A stretch of 20,667 nucleotides of DNA from IMG/VR virus record IMGVR_UViG_3300042691_028870, positions 1-20,667 of that record, one strand, 5' to 3'. Below the pieces are notes generated by a model that saw only the letters and a program-made list of their open reading frames with translations, made no database searches and was not told the origin of the DNA. Below, one piece after another: positions 7,084 through 20,583 of this stretch. This stretch comes from a virus. The first letter of the stretch is position 1, and each line of letters starts with the position of its first letter. Made by a program: the position numbers and the translations under genes.

Positions 7084-7842
7084 ATGAACGAAACAGAATT
7101 AGAACGTCAAAAAGTAATTGATTATTGTCAACTTATGTTAGGCTCCGGCATGGTTGATGTTGAGCTAGACCCTAGTCATTATAATACTGCAATTGACCGT
7201 GCTTTGAGTAAATTTAGACAACGTAGCAGTAATGCAATAGAAGAAAGTTATGCTTTTTTAACACTTCAAGTTGATGTAAATGAATACATACTTCCAAAAG
7301 AAGTTATGCAAGTTCGTCAACTTTTCCGTCGTTCCATAGGAAGTCGCACAGGAGGCGGCGATGGCGGTACGCTCTTTGAACCATTTAACTTAGCTTATTC
7401 TAATACTTATTTACTTACAAGCACTCACATGGGCGGCCTTGCAACTTATTATGCTTTTGCAAGTTATCAAAAAATGGTCGGTAAAATGTTCGGCTCCGAT
7501 ATCAATTTTACATTTAATAGAACAACTAAACTTTTAACATTGATGCAAAGACCCCGCGCTGAAGAAGAATTATTAGTTTGGCAATACAATTATAGACCTG
7601 ATTTCAATTTGATTCAAGATCCTTATGCAGGGCAATGGTTAAAAGACTATAGTTTAGCAACATGTAAAATTATGTTAGGTGAAGCAAGAGAAAAATTTTC
7701 ACAAATTGCAAGCCCACAGGGCGGAACTAGCTTAAACGGACAAGCACTAAAGGCCGAAGGTAAAGCCGAAATAGAAGTGTTAGAGCAAGATTTAATTAAT
7801 TATAAGGCCGGCGACACACCTTTAACTTTTGTGATCGGTTAA
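7084..7842 (+). CDS. 13: Neck protein gp13
   Basis: This 252-aa protein is recognised as the T4-type neck protein gp13, which with gp14 completes the head and joins it to the tail. N-terminal helices read LERQKVIDYCQLMLGSG and VELDPSHYNTAIDRALSKFR. The centre has NEYILPKEVMQVRQLFRR, and the C-terminal half has ELLVWQYNYRPD, WLKDYSLATCKIMLGEAREK and SPQGGTSLNGQALKAEGKAE, all typical of marine T4-like gp13. It is shorter than T4 gp13 (about 309 aa). I use ATG 7084, not the upstream in-frame TTG 7057, because the late box GATAAATA lies between them and an mRNA from that promoter could not contain 7057. There is no Shine-Dalgarno. Its partner gp14 is on the opposite strand. Confidence 0.85.
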   Translation: MNETELERQKVIDYCQLMLGSGMVDVELDPSHYNTAIDRALSKFRQRSSNAIEESYAFLTLQVDVNEYILPKEVMQVRQLFRRSIGSRTGGGDGGTLFEPFNLAYSNTYLLTSTHMGGLATYYAFASYQKMVGKMFGSDINFTFNRTTKLLTLMQRPRAEEELLVWQYNYRPDFNLIQDPYAGQWLKDYSLATCKIMLGEAREKFSQIASPQGGTSLNGQALKAEGKAEIEVLEQDLINYKAGDTPLTFVIG

Positions 7843-13786: not shown

Positions 13787-14170
13787 ATGAATCAAACCAA
13801 ATACAACAATCTTCCATCCGAGCCAAAAAATAAATCTAGTTCTGACTTAACTATACAAGCATTTGATACATATTATTCAAAACCATTAGAGATTAGTGTA
13901 GATATATTAAATTCTATGTCAGGATTTTTTCAAAGTAAAGGGTTTGAACAAGTAGCATCCGAAAATATTGCTATGGTTATTATTAAACAGGCAAAAAAAG
14001 ATGGATATAACCCTATGCAAATTTTAGATACTCTAAAAGGGTTTGATAATGTTGAAATTAGCGCACTAGTATCAGAAATTTTAAATTATAATCGATTTAA
14101 AACTAGTTTTTTAGGCTATACTCAAAGTTTTGTTATCAATGATGAAGTTTTAAGAAATATACAAGCATGA
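13787..14170 (+). CDS. Conserved phage protein of unknown function
   Basis: This 127-aa protein has a polar disordered N-terminus (about 1-22), then a compact, mostly helical body: FDTYYSKPLEISVDILNSM, ENIAMVIIKQAKKDGYNPMQ, LDTLKGFDNVEISALVSEIL and NYNRFKTSFLGYTQ. There is no signal peptide, membrane segment or catalytic motif that I can see. It begins 1 nt after the preceding stop, and its own stop overlaps the gp4 start (ATGA), so expression is tightly coupled to the structural genes. I recall similar proteins in marine T4-like phages without an assigned role. A small virion or assembly factor is likely from context. Confidence 0.75.
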   Translation: MNQTKYNNLPSEPKNKSSSDLTIQAFDTYYSKPLEISVDILNSMSGFFQSKGFEQVASENIAMVIIKQAKKDGYNPMQILDTLKGFDNVEISALVSEILNYNRFKTSFLGYTQSFVINDEVLRNIQA

Positions 14171-14610
14171 GCTTAAAATTTAGTCAAGGAATTTATAAAG
14201 TTAAAAACCCAGAAAAGTATGTAGGCTTAGGATATCCTAAATATCGTAGCAGTTGGGAAATGACTTTTATGATATTTTGCGATAATAATCCCAGTGTGCA
14301 ACAATGGGCTAGCGAAAGTATTAAAATTCCCTATAAAGATCCGTTAACTGGAAAAAATACCATATATATTCCTGATTTTTTTATAGTATATGTTGATAAA
14401 AACATGAAAAAGCACGCCGAGCTTATTGAAATTAAACCGGCTAAGCAAACTTTAAAAGAACGAGTTGGAAAGAATCCTTATGACCAAGCACAATACGTAA
14501 AAAACATGGCAAAATGGTCAGCAGCAACAGAATGGTGTAAACGAAATAAAATATTTTTTAGAGTAGTAAACGAAGATGATATTTTTGTCAATAATAAAAA
14601 AAGAAAATAA
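14167..14610 (+). CDS. 4: Head completion protein gp4
   Basis: This 147-aa protein matches T4 gp4 (150 aa) along its length, beginning with KYRSSWEMTFMIFCDNNPSVQQWASE against T4 YRSNWEKFFFEWLDKNPEIIAWGSE. It has a TnsA-like PD-(D/E)xK nuclease layout: E31 in SSWE, PD at 69-70 in IYIPDFF, and ExK at 88-90 in LIEIKP. gp4 acts late in head completion after packaging. The preserved nuclease triad suggests processing of DNA at the packaged end, although the exact reaction is not established. The C-terminus ends in a basic NNKKRK tail. The start ATG overlaps the upstream stop. Confidence 0.9.
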   Translation: MSLKFSQGIYKVKNPEKYVGLGYPKYRSSWEMTFMIFCDNNPSVQQWASESIKIPYKDPLTGKNTIYIPDFFIVYVDKNMKKHAELIEIKPAKQTLKERVGKNPYDQAQYVKNMAKWSAATEWCKRNKIFFRVVNEDDIFVNNKKRK

Positions 14611-14629: not shown

Positions 14630-15115
14630 ATGACAAAACGTTTAGAAGAAATTTTAAATATCGCACCAACAGACGAACCAAAAATTATAAGCCCTACAGA
14701 AAACGATACACCGCAGGTGCCTACTATCGATTTACAGGCAAAATTAGAAGAATTTGACAAAATTTCTTCAGCTCTTCCTAAAGTTAAAGGTTTAGGAGAT
14801 TTAGCAGATAGCGAGTTAGATTCTTTAGCAGCTAAGGCTGAACAAGCATACGATGATTTAATGGATTTAGGTATGAATGTAGAAGCTCGTTATGGAGCAA
14901 GAATGTTTGAAGTGGCAGCACAAATGATGAATGCTGCTATACAAGCAAAATCTCATAAAATTGATAAAAAACTAAAAATGGTTGATTTACAATTAAAAAA
15001 ACTAGCAATTGATAAAAAGAATACTTCAAAAGACGACGATCCGATCGAAGGTGAAGGCTATATTATTACAGATCGTAATAGCATTCTTGAAAAACTTAAG
15101 AATTTGAATAAATAA
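14630..15115 (+). CDS. 16: Terminase small subunit gp16
   Basis: This 161-aa protein is similar in length to T4 gp16 (164 aa). An N-terminal linker rich in P/T/E (1-35) precedes helices: LEEFDKISSALPKVKGL, SELDSLAAKAEQAYDDLMDLG, then EARYGARMFEVAAQMMNAAI and KSHKIDKKLKMVDLQLKKLA, the last probably a coiled coil as in T4 gp16. The C-terminal GYIITDRNSILEKLKNL resembles the short gp16 C-terminal peptide (MGSPTELMDEI). gp16 forms rings that bind concatemeric DNA and regulate gp17. It sits 19 nt after gp4 with AAAGG 7 nt before its ATG. gp17 is not adjacent as it is in T4: two genes intervene. Confidence 0.85.
   Translation: MTKRLEEILNIAPTDEPKIISPTENDTPQVPTIDLQAKLEEFDKISSALPKVKGLGDLADSELDSLAAKAEQAYDDLMDLGMNVEARYGARMFEVAAQMMNAAIQAKSHKIDKKLKMVDLQLKKLAIDKKNTSKDDDPIEGEGYIITDRNSILEKLKNLNK
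15107..15114 (+). promoter_or_regulatory. Late promoter-like box AATAAATA overlapping the gp16 stop
   Basis: AATAAATA overlaps the end of gp16 and ends 7 nt before ATG 15122, with no Shine-Dalgarno between. Placement matches the boxes at 7071, 12623, 16935 and 18533. Confidence 0.5.
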
Positions 15116-15121
15116 TTAACT

Positions 15122-15709
15122 ATGAAAAACTTTAAAGATTATCTAACAGAATCAAAAAAGAATTACGACTTTCGTGTAAAGGTCGCTGGAGAATTTACTA
15201 CCGAACAAGAATCAAAATTAAAAGATCTTTTAGGCAGATATACAGTAAGTAACTTTAGTAAAAAAGGTAAAACTCCTATTCAAGAGTTACCTTTAGATTT
15301 TCCACAGGTAAAAAATTGCGAAGTAAGTATTTTTGAAGTCACAGTGGACTATCCAACAACTGCACACGAATTAACAGAATATCTAACCTCAGGACTAGGT
15401 ATTGGTAGACAATTTCTTGTTGTCCGTCGCCCCGGGGAACCAAGTGAAGAATATCAACAGCCTGTTGATGAGCGCAAAGATGCGTTATTAACTGATCCTG
15501 ATTACAAAGAAGCACCTAATGCTAAATTTGAAGACTATTACGGTGACAAATATAACAGCGGTTTTGTTAAAGAACTAAATGATTTATTAAAACTTCAGCG
15601 CAAAGAGCGAGGTGAACAAATCCCATCGGCTGAAACTGTAAAATACAATACAGATAAAGATGCTGAAACAACAGCAGTTTTAAAACTTGCTGAAGATCCA
15701 AGGAAATAA
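15122..15709 (+). CDS. Candidate internal head protein with T4-type capsid-targeting peptide
   Basis: This 195-aa protein begins MKNFKDYLTES. The first ten residues match, position by position, the capsid-targeting sequence of T4 internal proteins IPII/IPIII (MKTYQEFIAE), and L-T-E at 8-10 fits the gp21 prohead-protease site (L/I-x-E). Cleavage after E10 would release the rest into the capsid. Residues about 18-110 form an alpha/beta domain (FRVKVAGEFTTEQESKLKDLL, then CEVSIFEVTVDYP, TAHELTEYLTSGLGIGRQFL). The remainder is charged (DERKDALLTDPDYKEAPNAK, then KLQRKERGEQ). It sits between gp16 and another suspected head protein. If packaged, it would be delivered with DNA into the host. The targeting signal is seen; the packaging is inferred, and no enzymatic motif is visible. 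Confidence 0.7.
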   Translation: MKNFKDYLTESKKNYDFRVKVAGEFTTEQESKLKDLLGRYTVSNFSKKGKTPIQELPLDFPQVKNCEVSIFEVTVDYPTTAHELTEYLTSGLGIGRQFLVVRRPGEPSEEYQQPVDERKDALLTDPDYKEAPNAKFEDYYGDKYNSGFVKELNDLLKLQRKERGEQIPSAETVKYNTDKDAETTAVLKLAEDPRK

Positions 15710-15711
15710 TT

Positions 15712-16887
15712 ATGCAAATGATCGATGTATTAAAGCGTCTTGCAGAACTAGATGCAAAAAATTCTAATGTTGTTAAAGAACAAACAATAACAGAAAATTT
15801 AGATGAATGCGGTATGATGGGCGGGATGAGCCAACCTCATAATCATAGCCCTGCAACTATTAATATGACTGCTGATAGCGGTACTGAATTAACTGGTATG
15901 TTACGTGATATTATGCAACTTGCTGGCATGAAACAAGTTGGCCCTTCTGATCTAGGTCACGATCACGAGCCAGCTGTAATTAGTGCAGAGCCAAGCATTA
16001 GTATTGCAAAAGTAGACGACGAACCTGATATTATGCGCTCAATGATGGATAAACTAAATCCAGATGATGAACAAAAAGTAGATGAATGGGATAACGAACC
16101 TACTACTGCTGAAGATGTTCCTACTATGGATCATGATGCTATGTTAAACACTGGTATGCATAATCAAGACCCAGCAGGTGCACCTGGTGCAGCAGACGGC
16201 CGACATCTAAAGAATCATCCTGTTGCAAGTCCTGAGGCAACCTATGAAAGCTTAATGGCAGAATATCGTAAATTTTTAGGGGAAGATCAAAGTGCAACAG
16301 AAGGTATGTCAGATCACGAAGATGAATTATCTATACGTAGTGCAGTGTTAGATGTATTACAAACTATATATGATGGAGCATCAGCAGGTGAAGAAATGAT
16401 CGACACTGTTGCAGATGAGTTAGGCGACTATTACGACGAAGTAGAACAAAGTGGTGATAGCGAACTAATGAAAGCATATAGATTTGTACGAGAAAAAGGT
16501 GCCGATGCAGAAGGCAATCCTGAAATGATGGCAAAAGTAGTAAAACAAGCAATGTCTGTTTTAGGAAACGATCAAGGTGTGGCGGAAGGCCAAAAATCGT
16601 GGACCGATGGAACTGTTGAGTATTCGATGACAGATCCTAATAATCCTAACGCTGAAATAGACGTTACTATAGATTACACTATTGATCATCGACACAACGA
16701 ATGTAGAGTTGATAGTGTAACAAATTCAGAGACTGGTGAAGACCTTACAAATAAAGTAGATAGACGACAATTTATAGATGTTTGTGTAAACGATTACCAA
16801 AGAAAAAGTGACGATAGATACGGCGAAGGTATGGCGGAAGCTGACACAATGGAATCTATGTTAAAACTAGCAGGACTTAAAAAATAA
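15712..16887 (+). CDS. Modular acidic protein, probable prohead core or internal head component
   Basis: This is a 391-aa, strongly acidic protein with separate modules. Residues 1-28 begin VLKRLAELDAKN. Residues 33-85 are Met/Gly/His rich (CGMMGGMSQPHNH) with a TELTGMLRDIMQLAG helix. Residues 86-175 are disordered and acidic. At 178-191 YESLMAEYRKFLGE resembles the N-terminal targeting peptide of the preceding gene. Residues 203-287 are helical (DVLQTIYDGASAGEEMIDTV, then a YDEVEQSGD turn). After GVAEG (289-293) comes a beta domain with a conserved-looking IDYTIDHRHNECRVDS. The end is MAEADTMESMLKLAGLKK. I recall GVAEG-separated modules in proteins of uncultured marine phages. Acidity, neighbours and repeated L/M-x-E sites suggest a scaffold or packaged protein processed by the head protease. 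Start has AAGGA about 7 nt upstream. Confidence 0.65.
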   Translation: MQMIDVLKRLAELDAKNSNVVKEQTITENLDECGMMGGMSQPHNHSPATINMTADSGTELTGMLRDIMQLAGMKQVGPSDLGHDHEPAVISAEPSISIAKVDDEPDIMRSMMDKLNPDDEQKVDEWDNEPTTAEDVPTMDHDAMLNTGMHNQDPAGAPGAADGRHLKNHPVASPEATYESLMAEYRKFLGEDQSATEGMSDHEDELSIRSAVLDVLQTIYDGASAGEEMIDTVADELGDYYDEVEQSGDSELMKAYRFVREKGADAEGNPEMMAKVVKQAMSVLGNDQGVAEGQKSWTDGTVEYSMTDPNNPNAEIDVTIDYTIDHRHNECRVDSVTNSETGEDLTNKVDRRQFIDVCVNDYQRKSDDRYGEGMAEADTMESMLKLAGLKK

Positions 16888-16947: not shown

Positions 16948-18534
16948 ATGGGAAGCAAAAACTTAGATGGCAAACTCGTAAAAACCGCGCACTCTACGCA
17001 ACGTTTTACAGAAAAGGATCTTGAAGATCTAGCAAAATGCATGGATCCTGAAACTGGACCACATTACTTCCTTGAAAACTTTTTCTACATACAACATCCT
17101 GTTAGAGGTAAACTAAAATACGAACCATTCGACTATCAACGTAGATTGATAGATAGCTATCACCAACATAGATTTAATGTTAACTTATTACCTCGTCAAA
17201 CAGGTAAAACTACAACTGCTGCCGGATATCTACTTTGGTATGCAATGTTTGTACCAGATAGCACTATACTAATTGCAGCACACAAATATACAGGTGCACA
17301 AGAAATTATGGTTCGTATACGTTATGCTTATGAAATGTGTCCTGACAATATCCGAGCAGGTTGCACAAGTTATAACAAACAAAGTATTGAATTTGAAAAT
17401 GGTTCCAGAATAATTGCACAAACTACAACAGAAACAACAGGCCGGGGTATGAGCTTGTCATTACTATATGCTGACGAGTTTGCATTCGTTGCACCAAATA
17501 TTGCTAGCGAGTTCTGGACTAGTATTTCACCTACACTTGCAACAGGTGGTAAGGCAATTATCACAAGCACACCTAACTCAGACGAAGATCAATTTGCAAG
17601 TATATGGAAAGAAGCAAATAAAAGATTTGATGAACATGGAAATACCACAGATGTAGGTCGAAATGGTTTCTTTCCGTTTAGAGCATATTGGAATGAACAT
17701 CCTGATAGAGACGAAGCGTGGGCGGAAGTTGAACGCAGTCGTATTGGAGAAGAACGTTTTAGACGTGAACATGATTGTGAATTTTTAGTATTTGATGAAA
17801 CATTAATTAGCAGTATTAAACTTGCTGAATTAGAAGGGTCTGAACCCATAATGAAAATGGGGCAATGTCGCTGGTATAAAAAAATTAATCCAAAATACAC
17901 TTACATTGTTGCATTAGATCCTAGTTTAGGCACAGGAGGCGACCCTGCTGCAATACAGGTTATAGAATTACCTACTTTCGAACAAGTAGCAGAGTGGCAT
18001 CACAATTTAACTACAGTTCAAGGCCAAGCAAGAATATTGCGAGATATATGTAATCATATTAGAGACGAGGGTAGTAAAAAAGGAGCAACCATAAACGTTT
18101 ATTATAGTGTAGAAAATAATACAGTCGGTGAAGCAGCATTAATTGCAATTAGTGAAATTGGTGAAGAAAGCATACACGGATTATTTTTAAGCGAACCTAT
18201 TAAAAAAGGACATATTAGGCGTTTTAGAAAAGGATTTAATACAACTCATTCGAGCAAAATTTCTATATGTGCAAAATTTAAACATTTAATTGAATCAAAT
18301 AGAATGAAATTACATTCAAAGCCTTTAATTAGTGAGCTTAAAACATATGTTGCTAAGGGAATTAGTTTTGCAGGTAAAGGGGATATGAATGACGACCTTG
18401 TAAGCAGTATATTGTTAGCATTAAGAATGATTGTAGTATTACAAGACTGGGATCCAGCGGTCTATGATAAATTAAGAGAAGAAGCCGATGACGAATGGGT
18501 AATGCCGATGCCTATATATATAAACACTTTTTGA
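16948..18534 (+). CDS. 17: Terminase large subunit gp17
   Basis: This 528-aa packaging motor and headful nuclease (T4 gp17 is 610 aa) docks on the portal, pumps DNA using ATP and cuts the concatemer. The N-terminal ATPase has an adenine-binding region around FDYQRRLIDSYHQHRF, Walker A PRQTGKTT (82-89; the GxGK is degenerate, as in T4 SRQLGKT) and Walker B LLYADE (172-177), with ITSTPN as coupling motif III. The C-terminal RNase H-like nuclease has D324 in IVALDPSLGTGGD, E389 in YYSVENN and D482/D483 in GDMNDDLVSS. The end is short and acidic (EADDEWVMPMPIYIN). There is no Shine-Dalgarno; the late box lies 5 nt before the ATG. The gene has its own promoter behind a terminator, split from gp16. 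Confidence 0.95.
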   Translation: MGSKNLDGKLVKTAHSTQRFTEKDLEDLAKCMDPETGPHYFLENFFYIQHPVRGKLKYEPFDYQRRLIDSYHQHRFNVNLLPRQTGKTTTAAGYLLWYAMFVPDSTILIAAHKYTGAQEIMVRIRYAYEMCPDNIRAGCTSYNKQSIEFENGSRIIAQTTTETTGRGMSLSLLYADEFAFVAPNIASEFWTSISPTLATGGKAIITSTPNSDEDQFASIWKEANKRFDEHGNTTDVGRNGFFPFRAYWNEHPDRDEAWAEVERSRIGEERFRREHDCEFLVFDETLISSIKLAELEGSEPIMKMGQCRWYKKINPKYTYIVALDPSLGTGGDPAAIQVIELPTFEQVAEWHHNLTTVQGQARILRDICNHIRDEGSKKGATINVYYSVENNTVGEAALIAISEIGEESIHGLFLSEPIKKGHIRRFRKGFNTTHSSKISICAKFKHLIESNRMKLHSKPLISELKTYVAKGISFAGKGDMNDDLVSSILLALRMIVVLQDWDPAVYDKLREEADDEWVMPMPIYINTF

Positions 18535-18546: not shown

Positions 18547-20583
18547 ATGAAACCAATACAAATAATTTCGCAAGATCTTTTTGATAAAATTAGAAGCCGA
18601 TTTTCAAATTTAGAAATGGGTACAGAAGAAGGCGGGGTAACTATAGATCCTGCAGAAGCACGATTTTTTGATTTTGATTTTGTTATAGAAGAAAATAATT
18701 TAGGTAGAGTAAGTATCAGCATTAATGATCCGGGTAGTTTAAAAATTTACTACAGTCAAGGAATTACAGAAAATCAAGATAGTAAAATAAAAAAATATTG
18801 GTATAGTTTTTTACGAGAAATGAGATATTTTGCAATGCGCAGGATTCTTCGATTTGATACTAGAGATATTTCTAAAGACAATCTTGATAAAAATGATTTT
18901 CGATATCTTGCGTCTACTAAACCTAAGGACGAAAAGGCTATGAATATGAATGAATCACGTTGGACTGGTCGAAACACCAGCAAAACAAGTAGGAGAGTAC
19001 AAGGTAAAACACAGGTTATTGTAAGACATAAAAACCGAGTAAACGAAATGCTACCTGCAGATCGTAGCAAACCATCAAACATTACAGCAATTTTTATTCA
19101 GAATGCTGACGGAGAAAGATTTAAATCTCCTTTTAATTACTTGCCATTGGCTTTCGCATTAGCACAACATATTGATCATGGCGGATTACCTTATGATACT
19201 CCTGCTAAAAAAATTATTAATATGTGTGAACAAATAGCACAACTTAGTGAATTTAAAAAACATATAAAAACTTCAAAACTACATGGCGATACTTTAGGCA
19301 TTGTAGATAGGGCTGTAGGCCGTTTAAACGAATTAAAAACAACTTTAGAATCTTTAGGAAAACGTCGTCATTATGAATCATGGCTTGCTGAATTTAATGA
19401 AAGTGAAGAAAATGATCTAATTGAATTGTCTCCCGTGCAAATGGAAGAATATAAATCTAAATTTACACAAAGTGAATTTAATGAAAATTTAGCAAAATAT
19501 TTTCCATTAATACATAGTATAATGCAAGAAAAAATAGAATTAGATGAATATGTTAGTAAAGAATTAGAAAATACTGTCGACGAAAATAACAATACAAATT
19601 TTACATCAGAAATACAACATTTTGAAGAATGGGCAGAATCTGTAGAACAGAATAGATTAGATTTAAATAAAATTCAAGATAATTTAAAGGGCGAAGATTT
19701 AATAAAAACTTTAAGTGAAATTACTTTAGGTCCCGGAGGAACTGTTGCTTGGTCAGAACTGAGCAACATTTTCGATCTCGACGAAAGAGACTCAGACGAT
19801 GAAGCGCTAAAAAATCAGCTTGAAGCAAAAGCAGAAACTGCTGATCAAGAGGCAACAGGTCTAGATAGCCCTGTAATGGATGTGTTCAAAAGTTGGGTAG
19901 AAGATAAATTTCCTCAATGGAAACAAGATCTTCAAGGATTATTCCCTGCAGAGCAGCAGGCACCGGCACCACAATCGGAGCCTGCACCTCAACCAGAACC
20001 TGTAGCAGCTCCGGCACTACAACCAGAACCTGTTCCACAACAGCAACCGGTGGCTGAAGGAACTGGATCTATGATGAAAGAAATTGCAGAAACTGTAAAA
20101 CGTTTTTACAATGCATCAAATGAGGATGTAGGACCTTTCCGTAGCGAAGAAGCAGTTTGTTTAGAAGTAGAAAAAACAATAAGCGAAAAATATGGAGAAG
20201 GTGCCGGAAAACGTGCAGGGTTAGTAGCTAAACAATTTATGGAAAAATTAACCAAACAATGGGAAATGAAACATCATAAAAATAAAGAAGAATTAGCACC
20301 TGTTGGCGACGACGGATTGGCACGTTTGAAAGAATTATTAGGTAACGTCAAAGCCAAAGTTGAAGGAATGTCAAATAAAGAAGACACAGCCGATGAAGGT
20401 ATGATGGATAAAGTTAAATCTTTTGGTAAGAAAGTTTTAGATAAAGTAGCACCCGATGATGCTGCATTATTAAAACAACTTGAAAAAGATAGCGGAGGAA
20501 GAATACCTCCACAATTTGAACCGAAGCCAGAACCTAAAAATGAAATGACAGATCTAAAAAAATTGGCAGGTTTGACAAAATAA
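18547..20583 (+). CDS. Large modular protein of unknown function, probable virion or head-assembly component
   Basis: This is a 678-aa protein with no recognised enzyme motif. Residues 1-210 are an alpha/beta domain (LFDKIRSRFSNLEMG, then GGVTIDPAEARFFDFDFVI), a pattern I recall from unnamed proteins of uncultured marine phages, followed by a basic stretch (SRRVQGKTQVIVRHKNR). Residues about 215-395 are helical (ESLGKRRHYESWLAEFNESE). An acidic stretch (408-436) precedes a Pro/Gln/Glu linker (467-505) containing QPEPV repeats and ending PVAEG. Residues 507-570 are a helical module, 580-645 more helices, and the end is TDLKKLAGLTK. The linker, the VAEG junction and the C-terminal tail resemble the 391-aa protein upstream of gp17, so the two probably act in the same process. 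Position beside gp17 suggests head or packaging. Start ATG 18547 follows a late box with no ribosome site. Confidence 0.65.
   Translation: MKPIQIISQDLFDKIRSRFSNLEMGTEEGGVTIDPAEARFFDFDFVIEENNLGRVSISINDPGSLKIYYSQGITENQDSKIKKYWYSFLREMRYFAMRRILRFDTRDISKDNLDKNDFRYLASTKPKDEKAMNMNESRWTGRNTSKTSRRVQGKTQVIVRHKNRVNEMLPADRSKPSNITAIFIQNADGERFKSPFNYLPLAFALAQHIDHGGLPYDTPAKKIINMCEQIAQLSEFKKHIKTSKLHGDTLGIVDRAVGRLNELKTTLESLGKRRHYESWLAEFNESEENDLIELSPVQMEEYKSKFTQSEFNENLAKYFPLIHSIMQEKIELDEYVSKELENTVDENNNTNFTSEIQHFEEWAESVEQNRLDLNKIQDNLKGEDLIKTLSEITLGPGGTVAWSELSNIFDLDERDSDDEALKNQLEAKAETADQEATGLDSPVMDVFKSWVEDKFPQWKQDLQGLFPAEQQAPAPQSEPAPQPEPVAAPALQPEPVPQQQPVAEGTGSMMKEIAETVKRFYNASNEDVGPFRSEEAVCLEVEKTISEKYGEGAGKRAGLVAKQFMEKLTKQWEMKHHKNKEELAPVGDDGLARLKELLGNVKAKVEGMSNKEDTADEGMMDKVKSFGKKVLDKVAPDDAALLKQLEKDSGGRIPPQFEPKPEPKNEMTDLKKLAGLTK
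19990..20033 (+). repeat. Short direct repeat coding for QPEPV in the linker
   Basis: CAACCAGAACCTGT occurs at 19990-20003 and again at 20020-20033, 30 nt apart and in frame. It encodes repeated QPEPV units of a flexible Pro/Gln linker. Such repeats can expand or contract by slippage. Confidence 0.75.

Follow-up and report, generated by a model that had tools for sequence, protein, structure and literature searches.

The internal proteins of T4 are encoded by variable, dispensable and host-specific accessory genes, and packaging by means of the capsid-targeting sequence (CTS) was defined in the T-even phages, where this targeting peptide loads variable anti-restriction proteins. A review of the T4 work describes the properties of the peptide in IPIII, where the first ten residues are sufficient. 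Targeting depends mainly on residues 4 and 7 and processing on residues 8 and 10, and an Asp at position 10 stops processing but leaves targeting intact (PMC9026906). The ip genes of T-even phages have previously been found via their signal sequence, and Ip1-3 are accessory, each acting specifically on a single GmrSD enzyme (PMC12373910). That a CTS is carried by a variety of T-even internal proteins is known already. The propeptides of T4 gp24 and of the head proteins of SPN3US and phiKZ are similarly N-terminal and removed by a prohead protease, but most of the SPN3US and phiKZ propeptides are far longer and have a different cleavage motif (PMC5694885). In the open-access literature we found no report of the tag on a Rak2-like core head protein or on a wide environmental set of proteins.

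We have analyzed a window of 20,667 nucleotides from virus record IMGVR_UViG_3300042691_028870, a 20.7 kb fragment with the protease region lying outside it. The key features are summarized in Table 1. The ORF of the window protein starts MKNFKDYLTESKKNYDF, so that its first residues are MKNFKDYLTE, followed by S. T4 IPII and IPIII both start MKTYQEFIAE (read from NC_000866), and all ten positions of the window peptide are either identical to these or conservatively substituted. The preliminary description had proposed a class-by-class match to IPII and IPIII that included the L/I-x-E site, and this is borne out.

Table 1. Features of the window, with the basis of each assignment. A slash marks the predicted position of cleavage.
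Feature	Position	Strand	Basis
gp4-like head completion protein, upstream neighbor	14167..14610	+	PHROG 218 and PF08722
PHROG 16202 ORF, gp16-like small-terminase candidate	14630..15115	+	gp16 identity inferred from position
Window protein ORF, ATG start, 195 aa	15122..15709	+	PHROG 14802 virion structural protein; synteny
CTS-like targeting peptide MKNFKDYLTE; predicted targeting F4 and Y7, processing L8 and E10	15122..15151	+	Conservation; T4 mutational map; IPII/IPIII match
Predicted prohead-protease cut E10/S11 (L-T-E/S)	15149..15154	+	Same kind of site in MCP aligned with T4 gp23 cut
Predicted ferredoxin-like (ribosomal S6-like) domain, residues 15-102	15164..15427	+	AlphaFold2 and Foldseek
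Low-confidence C-terminal tail, one predicted helix at residues 142-162	15428..15709	+	AlphaFold2
Downstream ORF, 391 aa, scaffold-like LAG motifs (15910-15930 and 16858-16878), C-terminus MESMLKLAGLKK	15712..16887	+	Motif scan
Large terminase gp17	16948..18534	+	PF03237 and PHROG 36964
PHROG 13484 virion structural protein, scaffold-like C-terminus TDLKKLAGLTK (motif 20554-20574)	18547..20583	+	Profile and motif scan

Conservation of the peptide was assessed in 37 distinct IMG/VR homologues collected without an N-terminal search pattern, i.e. found independently of the N-terminus. Position 4 is F or Y and position 10 is E in all 37, position 8 is L in 36 and F in one, and position 7 is Y in 30 with the remainder being H, I or L. 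Positions 3, 5 and 9 are variable. The window tag has the aromatic residues at 4 and 7, L or I at 8 and E at 10 by which we define a CTS, and all 37 homologues fit this description once H, I or L is allowed at 7 and F at 8. As judged from the sequences, the conserved positions coincide with those mapped by mutation in the CTS of T4 IPIII. Within the family genes Leu8 is encoded by all six leucine codons and Ser11 by both serine codon boxes. Since the codons vary while the residues stay fixed, selection acts on the protein and not on the DNA, and a DNA-level signal was rejected as the source of the conservation. Some members of the family have small insertions directly behind the predicted cut.

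In a profile search the window protein matches PHROG 14802 ('virion structural protein') over residues 1-134 with E = 2.9e-9. Relatives are found in the jumbo phages PA5oct, CBB, GAP32, 121Q, XbC2, Atu_ph07 and Phosso with a similar gene neighborhood, and we added 80 further IMG/VR loci to the comparison of synteny. gp4 lies upstream of the family gene in 100/100 testable loci and the PHROG 16202 ORF (the counterpart of that at 14630) in 97/100, while gp17 is located within 6 kb downstream (≤6 kb) in 61 of the 73 testable loci. This synteny indicates a conserved head-operon gene and not an accessory one, and it is maintained across phages of very different hosts. The window protein is the product of a core head-operon gene of T4-related, Rak2-like jumbo myoviruses. 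It was initially put forward as a new cargo protein, a description that must be withdrawn given that the family is already annotated in these phages as a virion structural protein and that its gene is conserved within the head operon. The cultured members of PHROG 14802 (CBB_210, GAP32_204, 121Q gp557 and PA5oct EST35_0202) are homologous to window residues 1-134 and occupy the same neighborhood, but their tags have diverged whereas the window form is canonical and IPII/IPIII-like.

Two further features of the locus were observed. The gp22-like scaffold of the clade terminates in the motif [LIM][LKR]xLAG[LIV] (e.g. LDIRKLAGLK followed by the stop codon), as seen in G001, G002, G003, PA5oct and Atu_ph07. 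ORF 15712 of the window terminates in MLKLAGLKK, with the motif at 16858-16884 and a second copy at 15910-15930, and ORF 18547 terminates in LKKLAGLTK, with the motif at 20554-20580. The IMG/VR loci contain 57 distinct cases compared with none for the reversed motif, and T4 gp22 is without the motif. The motif may be a scaffold-like tag that binds the shell. Because the two ORFs share this ending with the gp22-like scaffold, the picture of a head-core locus is strengthened. Secondly, the sequence ATAAATA, which is similar to the late-promoter element of T4, TATAAATA, precedes the window genes at 7084, 15122, 16948 and 18547. In 62 of 81 family genes, from related loci, it is present within the 25 bases 5' of the start codon, often only 5-8 bases away, and it may in part be just the stop codon of the preceding gene. 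Were these sites to act as late promoters, they would give rise to mRNAs with almost no leader.

The structure of the window protein was modeled using AlphaFold2 with 57 sequences (mean pLDDT 71, pTM 0.45). In the model the tag is a separate short helix comprising residues 4-10. Foldseek places ribosomal protein S6 at the top of the PDB matches, with E about 1e-4 and a TM of about 0.5 by target length, but an S6-like fold by itself is no pointer to packaged cargo. The window protein gave no match in Pfam, none in a sequence search against solved structures, and none to the defense families of PADLOC. A fold match in a viral library to Ip7 of the T-even phage MX01 (E = 4.8e-4, TM 0.24/0.39) is too weak to be used as support. 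It is the sole fold match of this kind, and at the level of sequence no relationship to the inhibitors of T4 is detectable, in agreement with the original observation that the body does not resemble T4 internal proteins.

The preliminary description also hinted at anti-restriction. The protein could be an injected anti-defense factor, packaged by its CTS and delivered with the DNA to inhibit a host enzyme in the manner of Ip1-3, which carry the same tag and are all GmrSD inhibitors (PMC12373910). The match to Ip7, such as it is, and the presence of enzymes including an ADP-ribosyltransferase among the other tagged bodies (see below) would be in keeping with this. Yet in phages of very different hosts the gene is conserved and keeps its place in the head operon, unlike the variable accessory ip genes, and the PADLOC and Pfam searches and the low TM scores provide no link to a known inhibitor. 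Given that Ip1-3 are accessory proteins directed to one GmrSD enzyme each while the present gene belongs to the conserved head operon, we regard this role as unlikely.

Cleavage of the tag would require a suitable protease. The T4-type prohead protease (PF03420) is present in 11 of the 13 relatives searched, and the two without it, contigs of 154 and 103 kb, may not be complete. The major capsid proteins (MCPs) of six relatives have the sequences YLAE/S, YLAE/A, YLKE/N, FLVE/N, PLME/N and MLTE/S aligned with FLTE/A of T4 gp23, suggesting that they are cut at the corresponding site. On sequence grounds these L-x-E sites with S, A or N after the cut are of the same kind as YLTE/S of the tag. Homologues of the window protein are found in virions. 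CBB_210 was detected in purified CBB virions by 13 unique peptides with 60.5% coverage (PMC5259590), and PA5oct EST35_0202 is annotated as detected by ESI-MS/MS. Presence in the virion, as expected from the earlier suggestion of packaging, is seen for two homologues, both of which carry diverged tags (CBB MNKLQKILTE and PA5oct MKSFRDYYDA) and not the window form; virion detection covers such relatives only, and mass spectrometry of these two phages does not separate the head interior from the shell or tail.

Processing residues are altered in PA5oct (Y8 and A10), in Phosso (MKNFYEYLSS, with S10) and in XbC2 (MNKLQKILTD, with D10), so that some members of the family probably escape processing. 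GAP32 has the same tag as CBB, which T4 gp24 (MAKINELLRE) resembles, and the family member in G002 has MTSFKQLLSE. The strict tag pattern gave no match in scans of the PA5oct, 121Q and Atu_ph07 genomes, the nearest in Atu_ph07 being MKTLQDYLTE, and therefore only diverged tags are present in the isolates whose virion proteomes have been analyzed.

We scanned IMG/VR for the tag, which gave at least 85 matches in 80 loci. Among the matches listed (85 in 80 loci) nearly all are ORF starts, and the 80 proteins of sufficient length for a comparison fall into 34 clusters after removal of the first 12 residues, the largest being the window-protein family with 22. Remote relationships may exist among some of the singletons, so that the matches listed represent at most 34 unrelated bodies. 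Annotated bodies include adenylate kinase, DnaJ, cytidylyltransferase-like, DUF5661, ADP-ribosyltransferase, DUF6267 and HAD-like phosphatase. PF03420 is encoded on 9 of the 11 tag-bearing contigs of at least 58 kb, a raw fraction that does not include the IMG/VR background rate. The cyanophage S-SM1 has a single match to a relaxed pattern, the cytidylyltransferase MKKFSAFLNE/A of group T4-GC190 (also represented in Syn9 and P-SSM2), and this has been detected in purified S-SM1 virions (PMC3037559). It shares the tag with the window protein but has an unrelated body with predicted enzyme activity, and so is an independent check that a tagged, unrelated protein reaches the virion.

A number of individual tagged genes were also observed. 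The ADP-ribosyltransferase (MKSFKEFLFE; PF03496, E = 1.8e-14) is encoded at 170264 of contig G012 (L335 1501-2283) and is comparable to the injected T4 Alt; the same contig bears three other tagged genes. Contig G017 has four adjacent tagged genes at 86066-87448 (L253 and L362) with unrelated bodies, one of them HAD-like; three begin MKTFKEYLEE and one MKTFKEYIRE, and together they form a cargo cassette. G002 encodes a second tagged protein of 274 aa at 169868-170692 (L356), with MKTFRDYLKE/A, that is unrelated to the window family. In T4 itself gp61.1 (54 aa; NC_000866 18966-19130, minus strand; L336 1167-1331) has the CTS-like start MKTFKEFIKE. Its gene adjoins the anti-toxin gene 61.2 (adfA), and gp61.1 may be an internal protein of T4 that has so far been overlooked.

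The wide distribution of the tag bears on a different reading of the N-terminal helix, as a docking segment for another step of head assembly (e.g. the portal, neck or terminase complex) that is never cleaved and whose likeness to the CTS is convergent. The position of the gene in the gp4-to-gp17 packaging region fits with docking, and the loss of processing residues in PA5oct, Phosso and XbC2 implies that cleavage is not needed everywhere, but docking would not account for the same peptide on up to about 34 unrelated bodies encoded elsewhere among the matches listed, nor for its occurrence on both T4 IPII and IPIII. L8 and E10 are moreover invariant in most members without other reason. This explanation is therefore improbable.

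The preliminary description had proposed a search of the same genome for other starts of the form M-K-x-[YF]-x-[DE]-[FY]-[LI]-x-E. Because the window record covers no more than 20.7 kb this was performed on relatives, using 2102 ORF starts (first ATG, ≥100 aa) from seven T4-like genomes. Five starts match, compared with 0.003 expected from independent columns. These are T4 IPII, T4 IPIII, two members of the window family and one unrelated protein of 274 aa. The relaxed DNA pattern gave 34 matches in 26 genomes compared with one for the reversed pattern. Real ORF starts account for 32 of the 34, and the other two, at HTVC008M 36025 and CBB 204755, were rejected as tagged genes, being short antisense chance frames. 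The motif is a short one made up of residues that abound in AT-rich genomes, but a likeness arising by chance or from composition bias at the start of genes (AT-rich Lys, Phe and Glu codons) is rejected by the expected-count and reversed-pattern controls and by the variation of codons at fixed residues, and is exceedingly improbable.

Comparison with T4 IPI, IPII and IPIII brings the main points together. The ten-residue N-terminal peptide has the same position classes, with targeting at 4 and 7 and processing at 8 and 10, a T4-type protease is encoded in the window clade, and homologues of the window protein are present in virions. The differences are that the body is unrelated in sequence, that this is a conserved head-operon core gene and not a variable accessory gene, that no restriction target is evident for the window protein, and that its cleavage and injection are predicted. 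It is probable that the window protein is a core head protein with an S6-like body in the head, that it is packaged by a T4-type CTS and that the prohead protease trims it in most cases. On assembly of the prohead core the tag (mainly F4 and Y7) would bring the protein into the core. On maturation a gp21-type protease would cut after E10 (L-T-E/S) and the peptide would leave, freeing the S6-like body, beginning at S11, to be retained inside the head. PA5oct, Phosso and XbC2 differ at the processing residues but retain either the targeting positions or their hydrophobic class, and in these phages the tag may stay attached. The most likely role of the protein would be to organize the core in a general way or to associate with the DNA inside the head, and it may be ejected together with the DNA. 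The sequence, its conservation and synteny, the protease genes in relatives, the MCP site by alignment and the detection of homologues in virions are established here; targeting, cleavage, internal location in the head and ejection are what we infer.

A label defined on T-even cargo is here fixed on a conserved jumbo-phage head protein, and recurs on environmental bodies. We lean towards the view that the T4-type CTS is a general mobile address label of T4-related environmental phages, fixed on the Rak2-like core head protein and grafted onto dozens of other bodies. If this is so, reading the tag would give a direct list of the proteins that uncultured phages package and probably inject. Provided the tag works as it does in T4, a motif of ten residues names the proteins that these phages pre-load, such as the tagged ADP-ribosyltransferase.
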